Positions 18,066 to 43,969 of a DNA stretch of 64,000 nucleotides are shown here, in pieces. The stretch lies in contig CAUJHS010000005.1 in assembly GCA_963204915.1 (NCBI GenBank), forward strand, positions 62,001 to 126,000, given 5' to 3'. Origin of the DNA: Planctomycetota bacterium (GTDB lineage: Bacteria > Planctomycetota > Planctomycetia > Pirellulales > Pirellulaceae). The translations under genes were made by a program, and so were the position numbers. Every line of letters begins with the position of its first letter. The stretch's first letter is position 1. Below the pieces are notes generated by a model that did not search any database, had not been told where the DNA came from, and worked only from the letters and a program-made list of their open reading frames with translations.

Positions 18066-19541
18066 ATGCACGTCTTGCCTTCCTCGGATGCTCGTCGCGG
18101 TTCAGGACTTGGCCAACCTGTGCGCCGTTCGCGGGGCCTTGGCCGACGCGAATTTCTGCGTATCGGACTGGGAGGTTTCGCCAGCCTGTCACTGCCCAAC
18201 TTGCTGCGCCTGCGCGCGGAAGCGGCAGAATCGGGCGCCGAAGGTCATCTGGCCAATGAAGAAAAAACGGCCGTCATTCTGGTATGGCTCCGCGGCGGCG
18301 CCAGCCATTTGGAAACGTTCGACCCCAAGCCCGACGCACCAGCCGAGTTTCGAGGACCGTTCGGGGCCATTCCAACCAACGTACCTGGAATTCATATCAG
18401 CGAGTTGTTGCCGCGACTCTCGCAGATTGCGGACAAGTATGCGCTGTTGCGCTCGGTGGCCCATACCGGGGGCGGCCACCCGGCGGGTTCGCTGCAAGTA
18501 CTGGGAGGGGACCCCGACGCGGCCGACAAGCTCACCCCCCGCTACCCCGACTGGATGAGCATCGCCCATTATCTGCGCTCCGGGCGGCCGCGTAACATTC
18601 CCAACTATGTGGCGGTCAATCCGGTTGATCGGTACGACAGTTTCACCATTGCCGGCTCAACGTATCTGGGGCCGACCTATGAACCGTTCCGCGTCATCGG
18701 CGACCCCAGCCAGCCGAATTTCGAGGTGCCCAATATTGGGCTGAAGGACGAATCGCAAAAACAACGGCTGCGCGAGCGCGTGGGTCTGCGGCAATCGCTC
18801 GATCAAATGCAACACACGATTGACGCCTCGGGCATGATGGAAGCCGTTGACCAGTTCGAAGCGCAGGCGATGAACTTGCTCATCAGCCCCGAAGCGAGTG
18901 AAGCGTTTGACCTTTCGCGCGAACCGGACGACGTGCGCGACCGTTATGGACGCCATGCCTGGGGACAGCAATGCCTCATGGCCCGGCGGTTGGTTGAGGC
19001 GGGCGTTGAAATCATCACTACCGAGTTCGACGGCCCGTTGTGCGGACGCGTGGCCAATTGGGACGATCACGCGGTGAATCATCACGTGTTCGAGGCGAAC
19101 CAGTACCGCGCGCCGTTTTTCGACCAGGCCGTTTCGGCGCTCATTGAAGACATTTACCAGCGGGGGCTCGACCGGCGCGTGCTGGTCGTTGTAACGGGCG
19201 AATTCGGCCGCACCCCGCGCATCTCGTATGTAGCCAGCAGCGGCGGAGGCGTGGCCAGCGCCGCCGCAGGCGTAGTACAGCCCGGACGCGATCATTGGCC
19301 TCGGGCCAACTCCATGCTGTTTGCCGGTGGCGGCATTCACACCGGGCAAGTGATTGGCGCCACGGATGCACGGGGCGAAGATCCGATTCGACGGCGCGTC
19401 GGTCCGCAGGACTTCCTCGCCACCATCTATCGCCATCTGGGATTCGATGCGGCCAATATCGCCATTCCCGACTTCTCCGGCCGACCGACTCCCATCCTGC
19501 GCGATGGTCAGCCCATTCCGGAACTTTCGCGCCAGAGTTAG
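18066..19541 (+). CDS. DUF1501 protein, Tat-exported
   Basis: 491 residues. The N terminus has a twin-arginine motif (GRREFLRIGLGGFASL). The body shows DUF1501 landmarks: VILVWLRGGASHLETFDPKPDAP, FGAIPTNVPGIHISELLPRLSQIADKYALLRSV, GRVANWDDHAVNH, VVVTGEFGRTPRI, DHWPRANSMLFAGGGI. DUF1501 belongs to the alkaline-phosphatase/sulfatase superfamily; the activity of most planctomycete members is untested. It normally sits beside DUF1549/DUF1553 cytochrome genes, which are absent here. The TAG stop coincides with the first three bases of repeat copy 1. Confidence 0.88.
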   Translation: MHVLPSSDARRGSGLGQPVRRSRGLGRREFLRIGLGGFASLSLPNLLRLRAEAAESGAEGHLANEEKTAVILVWLRGGASHLETFDPKPDAPAEFRGPFGAIPTNVPGIHISELLPRLSQIADKYALLRSVAHTGGGHPAGSLQVLGGDPDAADKLTPRYPDWMSIAHYLRSGRPRNIPNYVAVNPVDRYDSFTIAGSTYLGPTYEPFRVIGDPSQPNFEVPNIGLKDESQKQRLRERVGLRQSLDQMQHTIDASGMMEAVDQFEAQAMNLLISPEASEAFDLSREPDDVRDRYGRHAWGQQCLMARRLVEAGVEIITTEFDGPLCGRVANWDDHAVNHHVFEANQYRAPFFDQAVSALIEDIYQRGLDRRVLVVVTGEFGRTPRISYVASSGGGVASAAAGVVQPGRDHWPRANSMLFAGGGIHTGQVIGATDARGEDPIRRRVGPQDFLATIYRHLGFDAANIAIPDFSGRPTPILRDGQPIPELSRQS

Positions 19542-19667
19542 AGCGCGTTTCACGCAGGTGTGACGCCCCCAATGTGGCACCAGCGCTCCGCGAGTGCGGA
19601 AAACCACTCGCGGAGCGAGTGGACCATACGGAAGAAGTCGCCACAACTCGATGAAATACGCTTTAGG
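19539..19667. repeat. MITE-like palindromic repeat, copy 1
   Basis: About 129 bp beginning TAGAGCGCGTTTCACGC and ending ATGAAATACGCTTTA; the ends are imperfect inverted repeats (GAGCG-y-r-TTTCA). Inside are CGCTCCGCGAGTGCGG and CCACTCGCGGAGCGAGTGG, which pair with each other. It shares most of its length with the copies at 22420 and 39080. Its left end contains the stop codon of the DUF1501 gene. No coding capacity; it is too short for a transposase. Confidence 0.8.
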
Positions 19668-22023: not shown

Positions 22024-22422
22024 ATGTCACGCACCATTGTGAATTTCTGGCTGGATGTGAGTCTTTTGGTCTCGTTCCTTGGGAACGTTTGGGCCGCTAC
22101 GGTGCTTCGATTTTTGTTTCCCTTGGGCACCGCGGCCGATGGATGGCGGCTGTGGGGCTGGACTTACGACCAGTGGTTCGACTTCCAGTTCTGGATGATC
22201 GCCCTTTTGGCGCTGATGGTGCTGCTGCACGTCATGCTGCATTGGACGTGGGTGTGCGGCGTGATTACCAGCCGGTTCCTCAAGCCCAAGAACGGGCAGA
22301 AGCGGCAATGGGATGAAGGGGAGAAAACGCTCTGGGGCGTAGGACTGCTGATTGTGCTGTTTGGCGTGCTCGGAGTTGCGTTTGCGGCCGCGGCGCTGAC
22401 CATCCAGGCTCCGCCCGTTTAG
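22024..22422 (+). CDS. DUF4405-like small membrane protein
   Basis: 132 residues from the ATG at 22024. Three to four membrane helices: INFWLD-type start (IVNFWLDVSLLVSFLGNVWAATVLRF), WMIALLALMVLLHVMLHWTWVCGVI and LWGVGLLIVLFGVLGVAFAAAAL. The HVMLHWTWV His pair is the hallmark of DUF4405, a cytochrome-b-like family whose His residues may bind haem. A frame from 21682 runs into it but its first 110 codons look non-coding. The stop codon TAG is formed with the start of repeat copy 2. A link to the cbb3 locus starting 200 bp downstream on the other strand is possible but not shown. Confidence 0.72.
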   Translation: MSRTIVNFWLDVSLLVSFLGNVWAATVLRFLFPLGTAADGWRLWGWTYDQWFDFQFWMIALLALMVLLHVMLHWTWVCGVITSRFLKPKNGQKRQWDEGEKTLWGVGLLIVLFGVLGVAFAAAALTIQAPPV

Positions 22423-22546
22423 AGCGCGTTTCACGCAAGTGCGACGCCCCCAAGGTGGCGCCATCGCTCCGCGAGCGCCCGAGACCACTCGCGGAGCGCG
22501 TGGACCACACGGAAGAAGTCAGCCCACCTCAATGAAATACGCTCCA
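22420..22546. repeat. MITE-like palindromic repeat, copy 2
   Basis: About 127 bp in the same orientation as copy 1: TAGAGCGCGTTTCACGCAAG at the left, AATGAAATACGCTCCA at the right, and the same internal palindrome CTCCGCGAGCG / CTCGCGGAGCG. Its left end supplies the stop codon of the DUF4405-like gene. It sits between the two convergent genes. Confidence 0.8.
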
Positions 22547-22629
22547 GATTGCGCTGCGAGCCTGATTGCTGGTGGAGAACGGGCCACACGTGGCCGCGCC
22601 AGCGTAATGCTTATCGAGCGTGATGCGGT

Positions 22630-38362: not shown

Positions 38363-39082
38363 GTGACGACCTACGGTTACGACCATCCCAAAGATTATAG
38401 GCTCCGAATCGATGAATTGGCCGCGAAGATTGAATGTGAGCCAACGCATGCGCCCTCTCGCTACGAATACGGAATGGCGTTGTTGAGTCACGCGCGCCGT
38501 TCCGAGGCGGTCGTTCAATTCCAAACCGCATTGGCCTTGAATCCCTCGCACGGGCATGCCCGGCAGTGGCTCGAACGAACCGTCAAGCGGCTCGCACTCG
38601 AAGAACGTGTGAAGACGCTGCGAACTCAAGCGGGATCTGCCGTGAATCCTCAGCACTGGGCTGAGTGCGCCGAGGCATTCGAAGCGGAGTGCGAATGGGA
38701 GGAATCGCGAAAGCTGCTTGAGGAATACTTCCGCGGTCCCGCCGCCGATGTGACAGAGCACCGCGAGCATGAAACCGCGCCGATGCGATTATTGGCGTGG
38801 AATTTGGTTCAGACGCTTGAGCCCGACCATCTTGCCCGAGCCTGCGAGTTCGCCCATCGCGCCTTTCGGAGCGATTATCACGGTCCCGACGACCTGGCGG
38901 TTTGTGCGTTGGTGTTCGAAGCCGCGGGGCGCACACGTGAGGCGGCGACTATTTGTGAAGAAGGCCTCCGACTCCTGCAAACTCCCGAGATGTGCGACCG
39001 CAAGTCCGCAACGACGTGCGAAAGCATCCTCCGATCGGTTCTCAACCGAGTGACCAATTCAGCCAGCAACGGCTCCGCCTAG
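38363..39082 (+). CDS. TPR-like protein
   Basis: 239 residues from a GTG at 38363. The N-terminal 90 residues contain a TPR pair: APSRYEYGMALLSHARRSEAVVQFQTALALNPSHGHARQWL. Three more helix pairs follow (HWAECAEAFEAECEWEESRKLLEEYF; CEFAHRAFRSDYHGPDDLAVCALVFEAAGRTREAATICEEGLRLL). Cytosolic, no signal. The start overlaps a TGA in the -1 frame (GTGA), but the frame behind that stop has no convincing start. The TAG stop is formed by the left end of repeat copy 3. Confidence 0.75.
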   Translation: MTTYGYDHPKDYRLRIDELAAKIECEPTHAPSRYEYGMALLSHARRSEAVVQFQTALALNPSHGHARQWLERTVKRLALEERVKTLRTQAGSAVNPQHWAECAEAFEAECEWEESRKLLEEYFRGPAADVTEHREHETAPMRLLAWNLVQTLEPDHLARACEFAHRAFRSDYHGPDDLAVCALVFEAAGRTREAATICEEGLRLLQTPEMCDRKSATTCESILRSVLNRVTNSASNGSA

Positions 39083-39206
39083 AGCGTATTTCATCGAGGT
39101 GGGATGACTTCTTCCGTGTGGTCCACTCGCTCCGCGAGTGGTTTCCCGCACTTGCGGAGCGAGTGCGCCATCTTGGGGGCGTCACACCTGCGTGAAACTC
39201 GCTCTA
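39080..39206. repeat. MITE-like palindromic repeat, copy 3 (inverted)
   Basis: About 127 bp in the opposite orientation to copies 1 and 2: it begins TAGAGCGTATTTCATCGAGG and ends ACCTGCGTGAAACTCGCTCTA. The interior has the same palindrome (CCACTCGCTCCGCGAGTGG, CACTTGCGGAGCGAGTG). Both ends act as stop codons: TAG for the TPR-like gene on the plus strand, and TAG for the top6A fragment on the minus strand. Confidence 0.82.
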
Positions 39207-39491
39207 GTCCAGCCAGTCTTGTTCTTCGAGACGCTCGGGGACGTAGGTTTCGGTGACGAAGCTGATGCCCTTGTTGATGAGGGCTTCGACTTCGAGCTTG
39301 AAGTCATTATCGAGGAGCTTCTTGATTTCTTTCTGCCACTTGGGCTTGTCTTTGAACCAAGGGTAATTGGCGATTTGCTTGGCGCGCTTGCGGTCGTTGT
39401 CGTTGAGGCGGATTTGTACGCTGTTGGAGAGTCCGCAGCGCTCGAAGTCGATGCTCCGCAGGCCGAGGTACTTGGCGTCGGGGGTCGACAC
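39204..39491 (-). pseudogene. Duplicated 3' end of the top6A gene
   Basis: 95 codons from a GTG at 39491. Apart from the first five residues it repeats the C-terminal 90 residues of the intact Top6A (AKYLGLRSIDFERC ... VPERLEEQDWLD) with a single change (Gly for Asn in FERCxLSNS). It lacks the catalytic Tyr and the TOPRIM acidic residues, so it cannot act alone. It lies at the end of the inserted cassette, 6 bp after the stop of the small ORF, and could be translated. Its TAG stop is the last triplet of repeat copy 3; the intact gene uses TAA. Confidence 0.85.
39207..39482. repeat. 276-bp direct repeat, left copy (top6A terminus)
   Basis: Matches 40353-40628 without gaps; I count about 15 mismatches by eye, 9 of them in the last 60 bases. 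Only one amino acid differs, so nearly all changes are synonymous. Together the two copies bracket about 870 bp of unique sequence. Confidence 0.85.
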
Positions 39492-39497
39492 TCCATG

Positions 39498-39749
39498 TTA
39501 CGGAGCGCTGCCGGTGGCTCCACGTTCGTCGCATTGCTCGGCGGCGTGCTTGGCATTCGCGTAGGGGTCGGTAGCGGATAATTCGCCCGTCGGAGTTTCG
39601 TAATAAATTCGCCCGTTGATCGAGTAGACATTGGGTACGCCCAATCGCCTGCTATCGTCCTGAGCTTGCGCAACCGCGATGCTCCCCAAGCGAACTAGTT
39701 CATCGATTGTCGCGTACGTCCCGGCGGTCAATGGCGCATTCTCAATCAT
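39498..39749 (-). CDS. Small partner protein of the zeta-like kinase, possible antitoxin
   Basis: 83 residues. The ATG at 39749 overlaps the kinase stop by 8 bases (ATGATTGA), so the two are coupled. Sequence: TIDELVRLGSIAVAQAQDDSRRLGVPNVYSINGRIYYETPTGEL, a helix with many Ala/Gln residues followed by a short beta hairpin. This pattern resembles small ORFs found next to zeta-type kinases in other bacteria, but I cannot name a family. An antitoxin role is inferred only from the gene pair; in classical epsilon-zeta modules the antitoxin gene comes first. Confidence 0.65.
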   Translation of the reverse strand: MIENAPLTAGTYATIDELVRLGSIAVAQAQDDSRRLGVPNVYSINGRIYYETPTGELSATDPYANAKHAAEQCDERGATGSAP

Positions 39750-40326
39750 CGTTCGTATTGCTCCAAGCCATAAAAGCAGCGTGCAGGTTTTCGTCCCGAA
39801 CCGTCATCTGCCGATGCGAACCAGCGGACACGTCTTGGATTTGACTGCCTCCATTGTACAGCACCACCCAATTATCGGCCAATTCGCGATAGATCGTCCA
39901 AAAGTTGGCGAGACATCGGTGATAGCGTCGTCGAATATCGCGCTCCGGAACGTCGTGTCCTCCTTTGCGGACGCGTTCGGCCACTCGCGCGACGCAAACG
40001 TCTGCGGAATCGACAAACACAAACACGATCGTGATCTCAAAGCCGCATTTCGAGGCGTCGAGGAGGCGATTGCGAAACGAACGACCCGACAGTGTCGATT
40101 CGATCACGCACGAAAGTCGGTTCGCAAGGGCTCGATCTACGGAGCGGATGAATTCCCTTCCCGCTTCGATTCGCATCGATGCGGGCGCTACAGGATCGAG
40201 TGACGTAGCGATTTCGTCAGCGCCAAGATACGGAACTCCTGCGGCGGTCGCGTATTGCTTCGCGACGGTCGTTTTGCCGGATCCATTAGGGCCGCCAACG
40301 ATCAGAAATCGAGGTTTATCAACCAA
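39742..40326 (-). CDS. Zeta-toxin-like P-loop kinase
   Basis: 194 residues. Walker A GGPNGSGKTTVAKQ at about 10-23, then GVPYLGADEIATSL, with the acidic residue that zeta kinases place after the first strand. Further marks: GREFIRSVDRALAN, SCVIESTLSGRSFRNRLLDA (the ESTL motif), FEITIVFVFVDSADVCVARVAERVRKGGHDVPERDIRRRYHRCLANFW (lid region). Zeta toxins phosphorylate UDP-N-acetylglucosamine and block peptidoglycan synthesis; related P-loop kinases act on other small molecules, so toxicity is not proven. Start ATG at 40326, 23 bp after the top6A stop. Lies inside a cassette flanked by the top6A direct repeats. Confidence 0.85.
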   Translation of the reverse strand: MVDKPRFLIVGGPNGSGKTTVAKQYATAAGVPYLGADEIATSLDPVAPASMRIEAGREFIRSVDRALANRLSCVIESTLSGRSFRNRLLDASKCGFEITIVFVFVDSADVCVARVAERVRKGGHDVPERDIRRRYHRCLANFWTIYRELADNWVVLYNGGSQIQDVSAGSHRQMTVRDENLHAAFMAWSNTNDD

Positions 40327-40349
40327 TCCGCCGTTTCCTGCATTCGTCC

Positions 40350-41513
40350 TTAGTCCAGCCAGTCTTGTTCTTCGAGGCGCTCGGGGACGTAGGTTTCGGT
40401 GACGAAGCTGATGCCCTTGTTGATGAGGGCTTCGACTTCGAGCTTGAAGTCATTATCGAGCAGCTTCTTGATTTCTTTCTGCCACTTGGGCTTGTCTTTG
40501 AACCACGGGTAATTGGCGATTTGCTTGGCGCGCTTGCGGTCGTTGTCGTTCAGGCGGATTTGCACGCTGTTGGACAAGTTGCAACGCTCGAAGTCGATGC
40601 TGCGCAAGCCCAGGTACTTGGCCTCGGGAATGGCCATGCGCTTGGACTCGAACGCCAGGTTGATCGAACCTTGCTTGATCACGCTGTAGATGTAATATCC
40701 CCACGGGTCGTTATCGAGCACGCAGTAAATGGGCAGGCCGAGTTCGTTGTGCAGGCGGTGCAGCAGGCGGCGCACGCCGCGCGGAGGCTGGCCGCCGCCG
40801 TGGGTCAGAATGCAGTTGTGCTTGCGCCAGAATTTGTCCTCGTTGAAGCGGCGCCAAACCGTGTCTTTTTCGACATGCAGGATGAACTTCGCGCTGCACT
40901 TGACGAACTGCACCACTTCGGGCTCGACGATGGAGGGAATGTTATAACCCCCGCTTCCCATGCGCGAGCAGTCAATCTCGTCGCCGCTGTCGTTAATGAT
41001 GATGTTGCCCACCATCGTGCCGCGGTTCGAGGCGTACACGTGCAGTTCTTCGCGCAGCGCGTTGAGCAGCACTTCCACGTCTTCAATGATCGGGTCCGAC
41101 TCGGCCTGGTCGTTGAACGTTTCCTCTTTGGTTCCGTCAATGGTGTGCTTGAGAAGGTAGTACAGACCTCGGATACTCGTGGTCTTGCCTTCTTCAATCA
41201 GTTGTTTGCAGCCGCTGCTAACCAGCAGGGTTTGCATGTAGCTTTTGGCTTGCGAGAGATTGAACAACTCGCGCCGGGTGGTGTTGTTGCCCATCTCGAT
41301 GTAGCGCTTGGTCTTGTTGTAGCGCGCATTCGAGAGCGAGCGGCTGGGCACGTCCATGTGCGGGGCGCGGCTCTTGTGGGCCAGATCGACCACGCCGTCG
41401 GCCAGGCCGGTCAGCGAGCCGAGCGTCTTCTTGTCCTGCGGCGAAAGTTTGGCCGGGTCCGCCTTCGCGCGATTCGAGTCCGACGACGAGTTTGCAGATT
41501 TTTTCTTCGCCAT
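40350..41513 (-). CDS. top6A: DNA topoisomerase VI subunit A (Spo11-like)
   Basis: 387 residues. After a basic, low-complexity N terminus comes the winged-helix domain with the catalytic Tyr in TSIRGLYYLLKHT. The TOPRIM domain shows HVEKDTVWRRF (Glu) and CVLDNDPWGYYIYSVIKQGS (the DxD motif as DND). LTHGGGQPPRGVRRLLHRLH and EAKYLGLRSIDFERC also match Spo11/Top6A. Top6A forms an A2B2 enzyme with Top6B that passes one duplex through another with ATP. It is downstream of top6B on the same strand (about 100 bp). The enzyme is mainly archaeal and plant, with scattered bacterial occurrence. Confidence 0.93.
   Translation of the reverse strand: MAKKKSANSSSDSNRAKADPAKLSPQDKKTLGSLTGLADGVVDLAHKSRAPHMDVPSRSLSNARYNKTKRYIEMGNNTTRRELFNLSQAKSYMQTLLVSSGCKQLIEEGKTTSIRGLYYLLKHTIDGTKEETFNDQAESDPIIEDVEVLLNALREELHVYASNRGTMVGNIIINDSGDEIDCSRMGSGGYNIPSIVEPEVVQFVKCSAKFILHVEKDTVWRRFNEDKFWRKHNCILTHGGGQPPRGVRRLLHRLHNELGLPIYCVLDNDPWGYYIYSVIKQGSINLAFESKRMAIPEAKYLGLRSIDFERCNLSNSVQIRLNDNDRKRAKQIANYPWFKDKPKWQKEIKKLLDNDFKLEVEALINKGISFVTETYVPERLEEQDWLD
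40353..40628. repeat. 276-bp direct repeat, right copy (inside intact top6A)
   Basis: The 3' end of the intact top6A gene and partner of the repeat at 39207-39482. The match stops where codons for MAIPEA in the intact gene give way to MSTPDA in the fragment. Confidence 0.85.
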
Positions 41514-41617: not shown

Positions 41618-43666
41618 TTACGACGCGACCGCGCCCCCCGCTGGCAGCGGAGATTCGTGCGTGACGATGAGCACGTTGCCGCCGAACTCTTCGGGCGTTT
41701 CCACGCGGCGGCCGTGTTTGTCGAACTTGGCGTCCGCTTCTTTCGTTTTGCGTTCAGCCACGCGGAGCAAGTCGGCGTACACTTTGTCTCGGTCCGAGCC
41801 GTTCAACGCGCTCACGGCGCCGGCGACTTCGCCCAGGTAGCGCATGAAAATGGCGCGGCGTTCGACCTCTTGCTTCACCTTCAGCCGACGGCGGAGGAAC
41901 ATGCCCAGCTTACGGCCGACCGTTTGCAGGCCAAGGCGCAACTCTTTCGCGATCTCCGGATAATCAGCGATCGCTTCTTTCGATTCGCTGGTGAAGGGCA
42001 CCCACACGCTGGCCAGATGCACCATGACCGTGAGCGGGCCGTTAGGCAGCGAGCCGCGCGACTGGCTCAGACCGTAGCTGCGCCAGTTGGTTTGCATGAT
42101 GGCTTGCGTGATGGCGCACGCCGCCGGCTGAAATTGGAGCGGCACGCGGTTGGCGTATCGCAGCACTTGCATCGTGGCTCCTTCGCTCAGGTTCACGTGC
42201 TGCATGGCGTGATAGAGCTGCTCGACGGCGCCTTTTTTCAACTTGGCGGGCGACATGCGATTGGGCATCTCAGCCGCCTTGAGAATACGATCGGCCGCAT
42301 CGGCGCCAAGGCCGTCGAACGAACTGATGATGAACTGCCGTAGGGTTCGGGCGTCGCTTTCGGCCAGCATTTCGCGGAGCGCTTCGAGCGTCACTTTTTT
42401 GACGTTCGACACGCCGCCGTAGGCCAACGCCACCTCGACCTGGAACGGATTGCCCCGGTACACCGCGGGCGGCCGGGTCGCGGAGCAAAAGAACTCGCCC
42501 GGCACTACGTTGTACAACCCTTTGAGCAGGTTTTCCTCGCCAATGGGCGAGATGCAATCGGTGGTGGGCGCCGAGATTTTGGTTTCTTGAATCGCCTTGT
42601 ACAGCGCATCGGCCTCGCCCCGGCCCACCTTCTTGGCCGAGGTGCGCACGCTGAGGTTGGCGGTTTCGCAAATCTTCCGCGCCACCGCCGGGCTGACGCG
42701 CGAAAACGAGCCCGTGAAGAACTGCGACAGCGTGGCCCCGTCGGCGTCTTTCAACATCGCTACCAACCGCCCGAGTTCCACGCCGTAGGGGTGCGGCTTG
42801 ATTTCTTTCGGCTCGGGCGGCATGTTTTGCGACGAACGCTGGTACGTGCGGTATTCGCCGTCCGGATCGAGGTAATGCAGCGTCACGTGCGGGTTAGCGA
42901 TCGCCGTTTGCTCGAGGTACTCATCCACGCTGCCGCGGCCGCGTTTGTAGATGGCCTCTAACTCGATGGTGACGCGCGTGCCGCTGGCAAGCGGTTCGGG
43001 CTTTTGTCCTTCGGGCGTCTCGTAATGCTCGACCCATTCAATGCCGTGGTCGGCAATATACTTGCGGCCTTCCTCGTTCGGAGGAATGTCCACGCCTTCG
43101 CCTTTGCCGTTGAGAATTTCGGGCTTGTTCTTTTTGGGGTCGATTTGGATTTCGAAATAGTGCGCCGGCTTACGGATCGACGTTTTGCTGATGATCTTGA
43201 CCGGCTTGCCCGTGGTGATGAGCCCGTACATGCCGGCGGCGCTAATGCCAATGCCCTGTTGGCCGCGACTCATGCGCAGCCGGTGGAACTTTGAGCCGTA
43301 GAGGAGTTTGCCGAAGATGCTGGGAATTTGCTTTTTAACGATTCCCGGGCCGTTGTCTTGCACGCCGACTTTGAAGCGGTTTTCGCCCACCATTTCGATG
43401 TGGACCCACACTTCCGGCAGGATGCCAGCTTCTTCGCAAGCGTCGAGCGAGTTATCGACCGCCTCTTTCACGGTAGTGAGCAGGGCCTTGCGCGGGTTGT
43501 CGAACCCGAGCAAGTGGCGGTTCTTCATGAAGAACTCGCTCACCGAGATTTCGCGTTGCTGCGCGGCCATCGACTCGGCGGTGGCGCGGCGACGCGGGCC
43601 TGGGGCGCTTCCGTTCCGGGGGGCGTCGTTTACCAATTCGACGTTGTCAACGCTTCCGTTGGACAA
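41618..43666 (-). CDS. top6B: DNA topoisomerase VI subunit B (GHKL ATPase)
   Basis: 682 residues from a TTG at 43666, chosen because AAAGGAG lies 8 bases upstream; an in-frame ATG at 43708 lacks such a site. GHKL ATPase motifs: [15 protein letters not shown] (N box), [14 protein letters not shown] (G1), [16 protein letters not shown] (G2). The H2TH-like and transducer regions follow (about 270-500), with [14 protein letters not shown] and [15 protein letters not shown], typical of Top6B. The last 150 residues extend beyond archaeal forms and include [22 protein letters not shown]-terminal 40 residues are a polar extension. It forms the ATP gate with Top6A. Confidence 0.93.
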
Positions 43667-43969
43667 AGGTGATGCTCCTTTCCAGTAAAAGAGCGCAACG
43701 AGACACAAATTGAATTTCGACGATGTGGGTCGTCAAGCGTGACCCAGGAGACGGCTGGAAAGGTCCGGCAAGGTGGGACGAGAGCCGGCTGTCATGGCAA
43801 TGGGAATTATAACGACTTTGCCGGATTTATCCAGGCCAAGTCGCCGTTTTCCGCGGCTTATGCCTCATCTCAGTCAAAGAAAGTTCGACCCGCGCCAGCG
43901 GCGTAACCGAGAAAGAAGGAGGCACGTCCCCACGTGACTTGATACCCCGCAAAATCGCAGGAGACCCGT
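43667..43969. other. 303-bp divergent intergenic region
   Basis: Lies between top6B and a small secreted-protein gene. No gene seen. It holds a TATAAT on the minus strand (43806-43811) and a G/A-rich stretch with AGGAGGC and AGGAGACC just before the plus-strand gene. Confidence 0.5.
43806..43811 (-). promoter_or_regulatory. Possible -10 box for the top6B-top6A operon
   Basis: TATAAT on the minus strand, with a weak -35 (TGGATA) 16 bases upstream. The distance to the top6B TTG start is about 140 bp. Confidence 0.35.

Follow-up and report, generated by a model that had tools for sequence, protein, structure and literature searches.

In Escherichia coli K-12, the prophage e14 resides in icd (icdA/icdC): an element-borne allele replaces the 3′ end of the gene and the old end is displaced, and excision has been ascribed to site-specific recombination between 11-bp repeats (PMC4759930). 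Insertion with long target duplication has been described for restriction-modification genes (Nobusato et al. 2000, from the Kobayashi group, as cited in passages of PMC3031569 and PMC3874152). In the type VI secretion (T6SS) loci of Vibrio and in Rhs loci, homology-facilitated illegitimate recombination displaces effector-immunity genes and orphan ends (PMC5361080). Among kinase-type toxin systems, the avrRxo1:arc1 pair has its partner gene downstream of the kinase gene (PMC4938570).

Here we analyse a stretch of 64,000 nucleotides (the window) from a Planctomycetota bacterium of the Pirellulaceae (GCA_963204915.1, an assembly of 118 contigs; contig CAUJHS010000005.1, positions 62,001–126,000), in which a zeta-like kinase gene and a small partner ORF sit between two 3′ ends of top6A. 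The locus exemplifies a footprint that recurs around related zeta-like kinase pairs, which appear to be mobile. As in e14/icd, the window holds an intact target and a displaced old end that differ as alleles; in contrast to the prophage, the cassette is smaller than 0.9 kb, has two genes and encodes no recombinase. A preliminary description of this DNA had likened the locus to integrative elements that restore their target gene, a comparison that holds for the intact gene and the displaced allelic end, but not for an integrase of its own. With the restriction-modification genes, as far as the cited passages go, the locus shares an addiction-type pair between direct repeats of about 100 bp and the lack of a transposase or common end sequence. 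It differs in carrying a zeta-like kinase pair, in having as repeats gene termini that are bounded near the stop codon, and in the allele-like synonymous differences between the copies. The presumed addition of cargo through one-sided homology, with the old gene end shifting downstream, recalls the Vibrio T6SS and Rhs loci, yet there toxin ends at fixed loci are concerned, whereas here core metabolic and information genes are hit and stay intact. Insertions of this kind are known in outline; what is new here is the cargo, the precision with which the borders fall at gene ends, and the allele signature.

A direct repeat of the top6A end brackets two genes

The relevant features of the window are, in order of position:

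38363–39082, plus strand: convergent TPR-repeat gene, adjoining the distal tail (PF13428)
39078–39206, no strand assigned: MITE-like interspersed repeat, 129 bp (repeat search)
39204–39482, minus strand: top6A 3′ end, distal and displaced copy; detached from the gene, with a reading frame open over about 95 codons (repeat search and codon comparison)
39498–39749, minus strand: small ORF of 83 aa, partner of the kinase and presumed antitoxin (its place after the kinase gene is conserved among relatives)
39742–40326, minus strand: zeta-like P-loop kinase, 194 aa, presumed toxin (Pfam, AlphaFold, structure matches, catalytic residues)
40350–40628, minus strand: top6A 3′ end, proximal and intact copy, the real gene end (repeat search and codon comparison)
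40350–41513, minus strand: intact top6A gene for subunit A of topoisomerase VI, 387 aa (Pfam PF21180, E 1.5e-59; NCBIfam NF003333, 565 bits)
41618–43708, minus strand: top6B, upstream gene of the top6BA operon (PF09239, E 1.8e-51)

The two top6A ends form a direct repeat (39205–39482 and 40351–40628) of 278 bp with 94.6% identity and a spacing of 1146 bp. It is the strongest direct repeat within the window, and its length and identity exclude a chance origin. Thus, the arrangement given in the preliminary description, a direct repeat of the top6A terminus around a kinase and a small partner directly behind the gene, is confirmed. The kinase gene starts 24 bp past the top6A stop codon, the first 8 bp of the partner ORF lie within the end of the kinase gene, and the distal tail has a candidate GTG start 7 bp past the partner stop codon. 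The 867 bp between the repeats hold these two genes only, in agreement with the earlier remark that no integrase is visible. Likewise, top6A has been left intact, as claimed, with Pfam and NCBIfam matches for a 387-aa product that shares 72–76% amino acid identity with Top6A of relatives. The expectation that other cargo would be found behind top6A elsewhere was not borne out in 29 top6A loci. A search of 864 kb of the same genome (40 segments of 20 kb plus the window) revealed no second single-copy gene-end repeat that brackets a cassette; the repeats found were otherwise interspersed repeats and repeated genes or domains.

The cassette encodes a toxin-antitoxin-like pair

The kinase matches the Pfam families AAA_33 (55.8 bits) and Zeta_toxin (36.2 bits), both beyond the Pfam cut-offs. 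Ten residues (G12, N14, G15, G17, K18, T20, D37, E76, R114 and R118) are invariant across 19 homologues, and the protein combines the Walker A motif GxNGxGKT[ST] with the conserved acidic and arginine catalytic residues of zeta-toxin-like kinases. Its AlphaFold model (mean pLDDT 92.6) gives a full-length fold match with AvrRxo1-ORF1 (4z8q; Foldseek E 7e-9; VIA Z 15.5–15.6 over about 190 residues) and also aligns with zeta toxin (3q8x and 1gvn; Z 15.1 and 14.8). Further matches are PezT (2p5t) and, with Z 16.6 across 156 residues, bacterial Pnkp kinases.

The partner ORF has no family match in Pfam, NCBIfam, PHROGs or PADLOC. Nevertheless, a small ORF lies behind the kinase, with an overlap of 4–8 bp, in most of 112 homologous kinases, and these partner ORFs likely consist of a helix and a short hairpin-like motif of the form 'P-hydrophobic...G'. 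The gene order (kinase first, small partner second, with the 4–8 bp overlap seen here and in the majority of homologues) and the fold match resemble AvrRxo1:Arc1. With epsilon/zeta and PezAT the cassette shares the kinase fold; in those systems the antitoxin is encoded upstream, whereas in the window top6A is upstream and the partner, which lacks a family match, is downstream.

In one genome of genus g7 (G696; L257, 3684–4162) the kinase is reduced to its C-terminal part, the partner is intact and both tail copies remain. Loss of the kinase with retention of the partner fits the expectation for a toxin-antitoxin system, and presumably the toxin was lost here and the antitoxin kept. At two other loci (L044 in G172 and L045 in G146) the partner homologues contain stop codons or frameshifts, which are signs of decaying modules. 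Judging from sequence and predicted fold, we infer that kinase and partner form a toxin-antitoxin-like pair with the respective activities. A scan of genome contigs with the kinase alignment found a single locus. Among 50,697 phage records there was one weak match to the kinase; plasmids carry distant zeta-family relatives with at most 38% identity among the matches listed, and plasmid carriage of this kinase subfamily is possible.

The two top6A ends differ like alleles of working genes

Over 92 aligned codons, the two copies of the top6A end show 15 base differences, 11 of them at third positions; 10 codons differ synonymously and two differ in the encoded amino acid. The earlier count of about 15 base differences thus stands, while two amino acid differences were found rather than one. 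One is an N-to-G replacement brought about by a three-base change; the other (E/D) lies close to the inner edge of the repeat. In a dead-copy simulation, in which one copy drifts freely and the other takes synonymous changes only, about 9–10 amino acid differences are expected. With 16 base differences, none of 5000 runs gave two or fewer amino acid changes; with 15, this outcome was reached in 0.05% of 2000 runs. Moreover, both residues of the distal copy are used by working Top6A proteins (CGLSNS in L031, PDAK in many relatives). The simulation and these residues suggest that the copies diverged mostly as parts of working genes. The preliminary description had proposed just this, and besides the 10 to 2 ratio of synonymous to non-synonymous codons, which it had suggested determining, the synonymous excess in other cassettes (see below) speaks in its favour. 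It had also named two signs of a simple local duplication: the copies are indeed mutual closest relatives among 241 genomes of the family, but non-synonymous changes are not as frequent as synonymous ones. Two working-gene alleles next to a gene that was left intact are therefore a supported reading, short of proof for the window itself.

Gene-end repeats recur around related kinases in Planctomycetota

Kinase relatives gathered from Planctomycetota genomes gave 108 distinct places, 101 of which had enough flanking sequence. A place was taken as bracketed when a direct repeat lay within 600 bp on each side of the kinase. This was true for 14 of the 101 places, with repeats of 26–278 bp. Since the cassettes of G007 and G230 go back to one old insertion, which a third genome of genus g7 also carries, so that three species share it, the 14 places represent 13 independent events. 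Under the same rule, repeats were found for 7 of 822 placements elsewhere in the same loci and for none of the 29 top6A loci (Fisher p about 1e-9, or 5.6e-9 for the 13 independent events; both values are approximate, as the control placements overlap). The remaining 86% of the cassettes have no flanking repeat.

In nearly every bracketed case the repeat is a gene terminus. It is a 3′ end in top6A (278 bp), a hydrolase gene (67 bp), purQ (140 bp, 98% identical), a thiolase gene (123 bp), a PglX-like gene (141 bp), ligA (61 bp, convergent) and the genes for a 495-aa (81 bp, convergent) and a 991-aa protein (39 bp), and a 5′ end in hsdM (69 bp), a T5orf172-like gene (111 bp) and a CstA-like gene (26 bp). 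The other two cases are a promoter-like stretch of 44 bp and an unclear 91-bp repeat in G403. Several of these gene names stem from reading the translated ends. The targets are unrelated and comprise 5′ and 3′ ends in both orientations. In every case the intact gene has its terminus toward the cassette, beyond which the remnant is located. For the eight independent 3′ sites, the limits of homology are at −19, −8, −1, 0, +2, +2, +2 and +3 bp relative to the stop codon; six of the eight are no more than 3 bp away from it. Three related cassettes from one bacterial family (L183, L184 and L187, in G362, G517 and G383) sit at purQ, the thiolase gene and ligA, respectively; their kinases are 58–72% identical and each has left a gene-end footprint. 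These cassettes would be a good system for mobility tests.

No shared cassette-end motif was apparent by eye in the 14 junctions, and none of nine loci had a tRNA gene as integration site. Integron attC sites had been considered for some repeats of 60–140 bp and were dropped, because coding ends of different genes make up the repeats. Assembly error is ruled out as a general cause, since four of the genomes with the arrangement (G007, G230, G196 and G403) are single contigs; the assembly that contains the window, however, consists of 118. The genome of G403 is unusually repeat-rich. Its cassette (L185) is flanked by multicopy sequence with more than 20 near-identical copies of about 1.3–1.7 kb, and the 91-bp case is for this reason weak evidence.

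An empty site is available for purQ. Fourteen relatives of the cassette-bearing genome have a single purQ tail and no kinase nearby, although in two of the 14 the tail match is split into two pieces by an indel; insertion and duplication are therefore derived. The displaced purQ copy retains a residue common in the relatives (LPKREWGDGF), where the intact gene has R. Overall, the two purQ copies are 98% alike, and the sequence past the stop codon differs at once. When eight independent cases were pooled, 75 coding base differences were counted, 59 of them at third positions, with 19 amino acid codons affected. A dead copy would be expected to show 42–44 ± 4 amino acid codons and at most 45–50 third-position changes. 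Besides top6A, the strongest single cases are the T5orf172-like gene (P 0.007), the PglX-like gene (P 0.008) and the thiolase gene (P 0.02). The hydrolase tails of genus g7 show no excess; they may date from long ago and by now be drifting like dead DNA. Some displaced tails of other cassettes contain frameshifts or stops.

Origin of the footprint

The kinase-partner module appears to be mobile without any transposase. We give slightly better than even credence to the view that a two-gene toxin-antitoxin-like cassette, which encodes neither integrase nor transposase, reached its present place through homologous recombination at the top6A end. The incoming DNA would have comprised the top6A tail of a related lineage together with the kinase and partner genes, most simply as a small circle or as a fragment with one-sided homology. 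A circle could have entered by a single crossover with the resident top6A; a fragment would have used homology on one side and an illegitimate join on the other. Either route would yield an intact gene whose end abuts the cassette, with the resident's tail pushed to the far side, beside the TPR gene. The function of top6A would never have been lost, and the presumed addiction exerted by the pair would retain the insert. We infer a foreign origin for one of the tails and a circular or one-sided intermediate. What is observed is the repeat, the two-gene module, the recurrence at gene ends, the synonymous bias and the purQ empty site. A gene end from a related lineage, fused to the cassette, would account both for the allele-like divergence and for homology that stops at the gene end, because only the coding part would be common to the two lineages. 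At purQ, however, the tails are 98% alike, so that diverged spacers do not explain the boundary. Its position at the stop codon implies that some property of the insertion itself sets the border and that allelic homology alone is insufficient. Also against this recombination model, the displaced tail in genus g7 seems to drift like dead DNA, the absence of a repeat in 86% of the cassettes makes decay or another route necessary, and no strain with an empty top6A site or the donor tail came to light among the 241 family genomes. The same picture would result if the cassette had been imported with its tail and the intact end had been exchanged for another allele afterwards.

The main alternative, which we consider rather unlikely, is a long target duplication, in which a break-repair process of unknown kind copied about 30–280 bp and later recombination put a diverged working allele on the intact end. 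In form this matches the restriction-modification genes, for which the cited passages give variable duplications on the order of 100 bp (PMC3874152, PMC3031569). Flanking repeats at 14 of 101 places and the purQ empty site agree with it, as do the near-identical purQ copies and the old insertion common to three species of genus g7. Such copies would be identical upon insertion, and the third-position excess opposes simple drift from that state. Later allelic replacement could mimic the excess, but this second event would be needed in most cases, and it leaves unexplained why, at six of eight 3′ sites, the duplicated stretch stops no more than 3 bp away from the stop codon.

It is improbable that the cassettes are non-autonomous integrative elements that depend in trans on a tyrosine or serine recombinase whose gene lies elsewhere, the att core being inside the repeats. 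The outcome would equal that at e14/icd, an element-borne gene end and a displaced old end (PMC4759930), but the targets span 5′ ends, 3′ ends and both orientations, and the repeats differ from case to case (26 to 278 bp), with no common core or cassette end seen. We give very little credence to the idea that part of top6A was duplicated locally, that the kinase pair was captured later and that the dead tail then drifted. That the copies are mutual closest relatives (best other match among the 241 family genomes, 78% DNA identity) speaks for it, but about nine amino acid changes would be expected against two observed, unrelated genes show this arrangement around kinases of the same family, and the 864 kb searched yielded no comparable repeat. 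Least credible is that the displaced tail is functional, e.g. by modulating topoisomerase VI as a C-terminal Toprim fragment, with selection acting on its protein sequence: its open frame, possible GTG start and nearly all synonymous changes would fit, but since other cassettes carry purQ, thiolase or ligA tails or 5′ fragments, some of them broken, a role of the product would not be general.

Returning to entry by homologous recombination, we tentatively propose, with some doubt, a wider scenario in which zeta-like kinase modules are transposase-free mobile genes across Planctomycetota. They would take up the end of a host gene time and again and use it as homology arm, each insertion sparing the gene and leaving a displaced allelic remnant as footprint. 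Excised as circles between the two ends, they would re-enter the same gene in another strain, a cycle that host RecA alone could keep going. How small chromosomal toxin-antitoxin modules without a transposase move between genomes is an open question. It becomes testable with a footprint that marks about one seventh of this kinase family and comes with identifiable target genes, with empty sites and with arms that resemble alleles. For annotators, truncated core-gene ends beside toxin-like genes are to be read as insertion scars and not as local pseudogenes.

The resident top6A end and a neighbouring MITE-like element

The nearest other top6A among the 241 family genomes is too distant (78% DNA identity) for a tree to assign the native tail. 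The only other genome of the genus, which is 72% complete, has no clear top6A, the codon usage of the two tails relative to the gene body is not decisive, and the top6A-TPR neighbourhood is not kept in any relative compared. A hint comes from the MITE-like element, a repeat of about 127–129 bp (TAGAGCG...CGCTCTA) with imperfect terminal inverted repeats that occurs three times in the window (19538–19667, 22419–22547 and 39078–39206) and at least 40 times in the genome. The copy at 39078–39206, which the preliminary description does not mention, separates the distal tail from the convergent TPR gene, and both take their stop codons from the TAGs at the ends of the element. When the element is left out in silico, the distal tail and the TPR gene would overlap in a common CTAG. 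Because of this overlap, the distal tail may be the resident top6A end in its old neighbourhood, and the present tail of the intact gene the newcomer.
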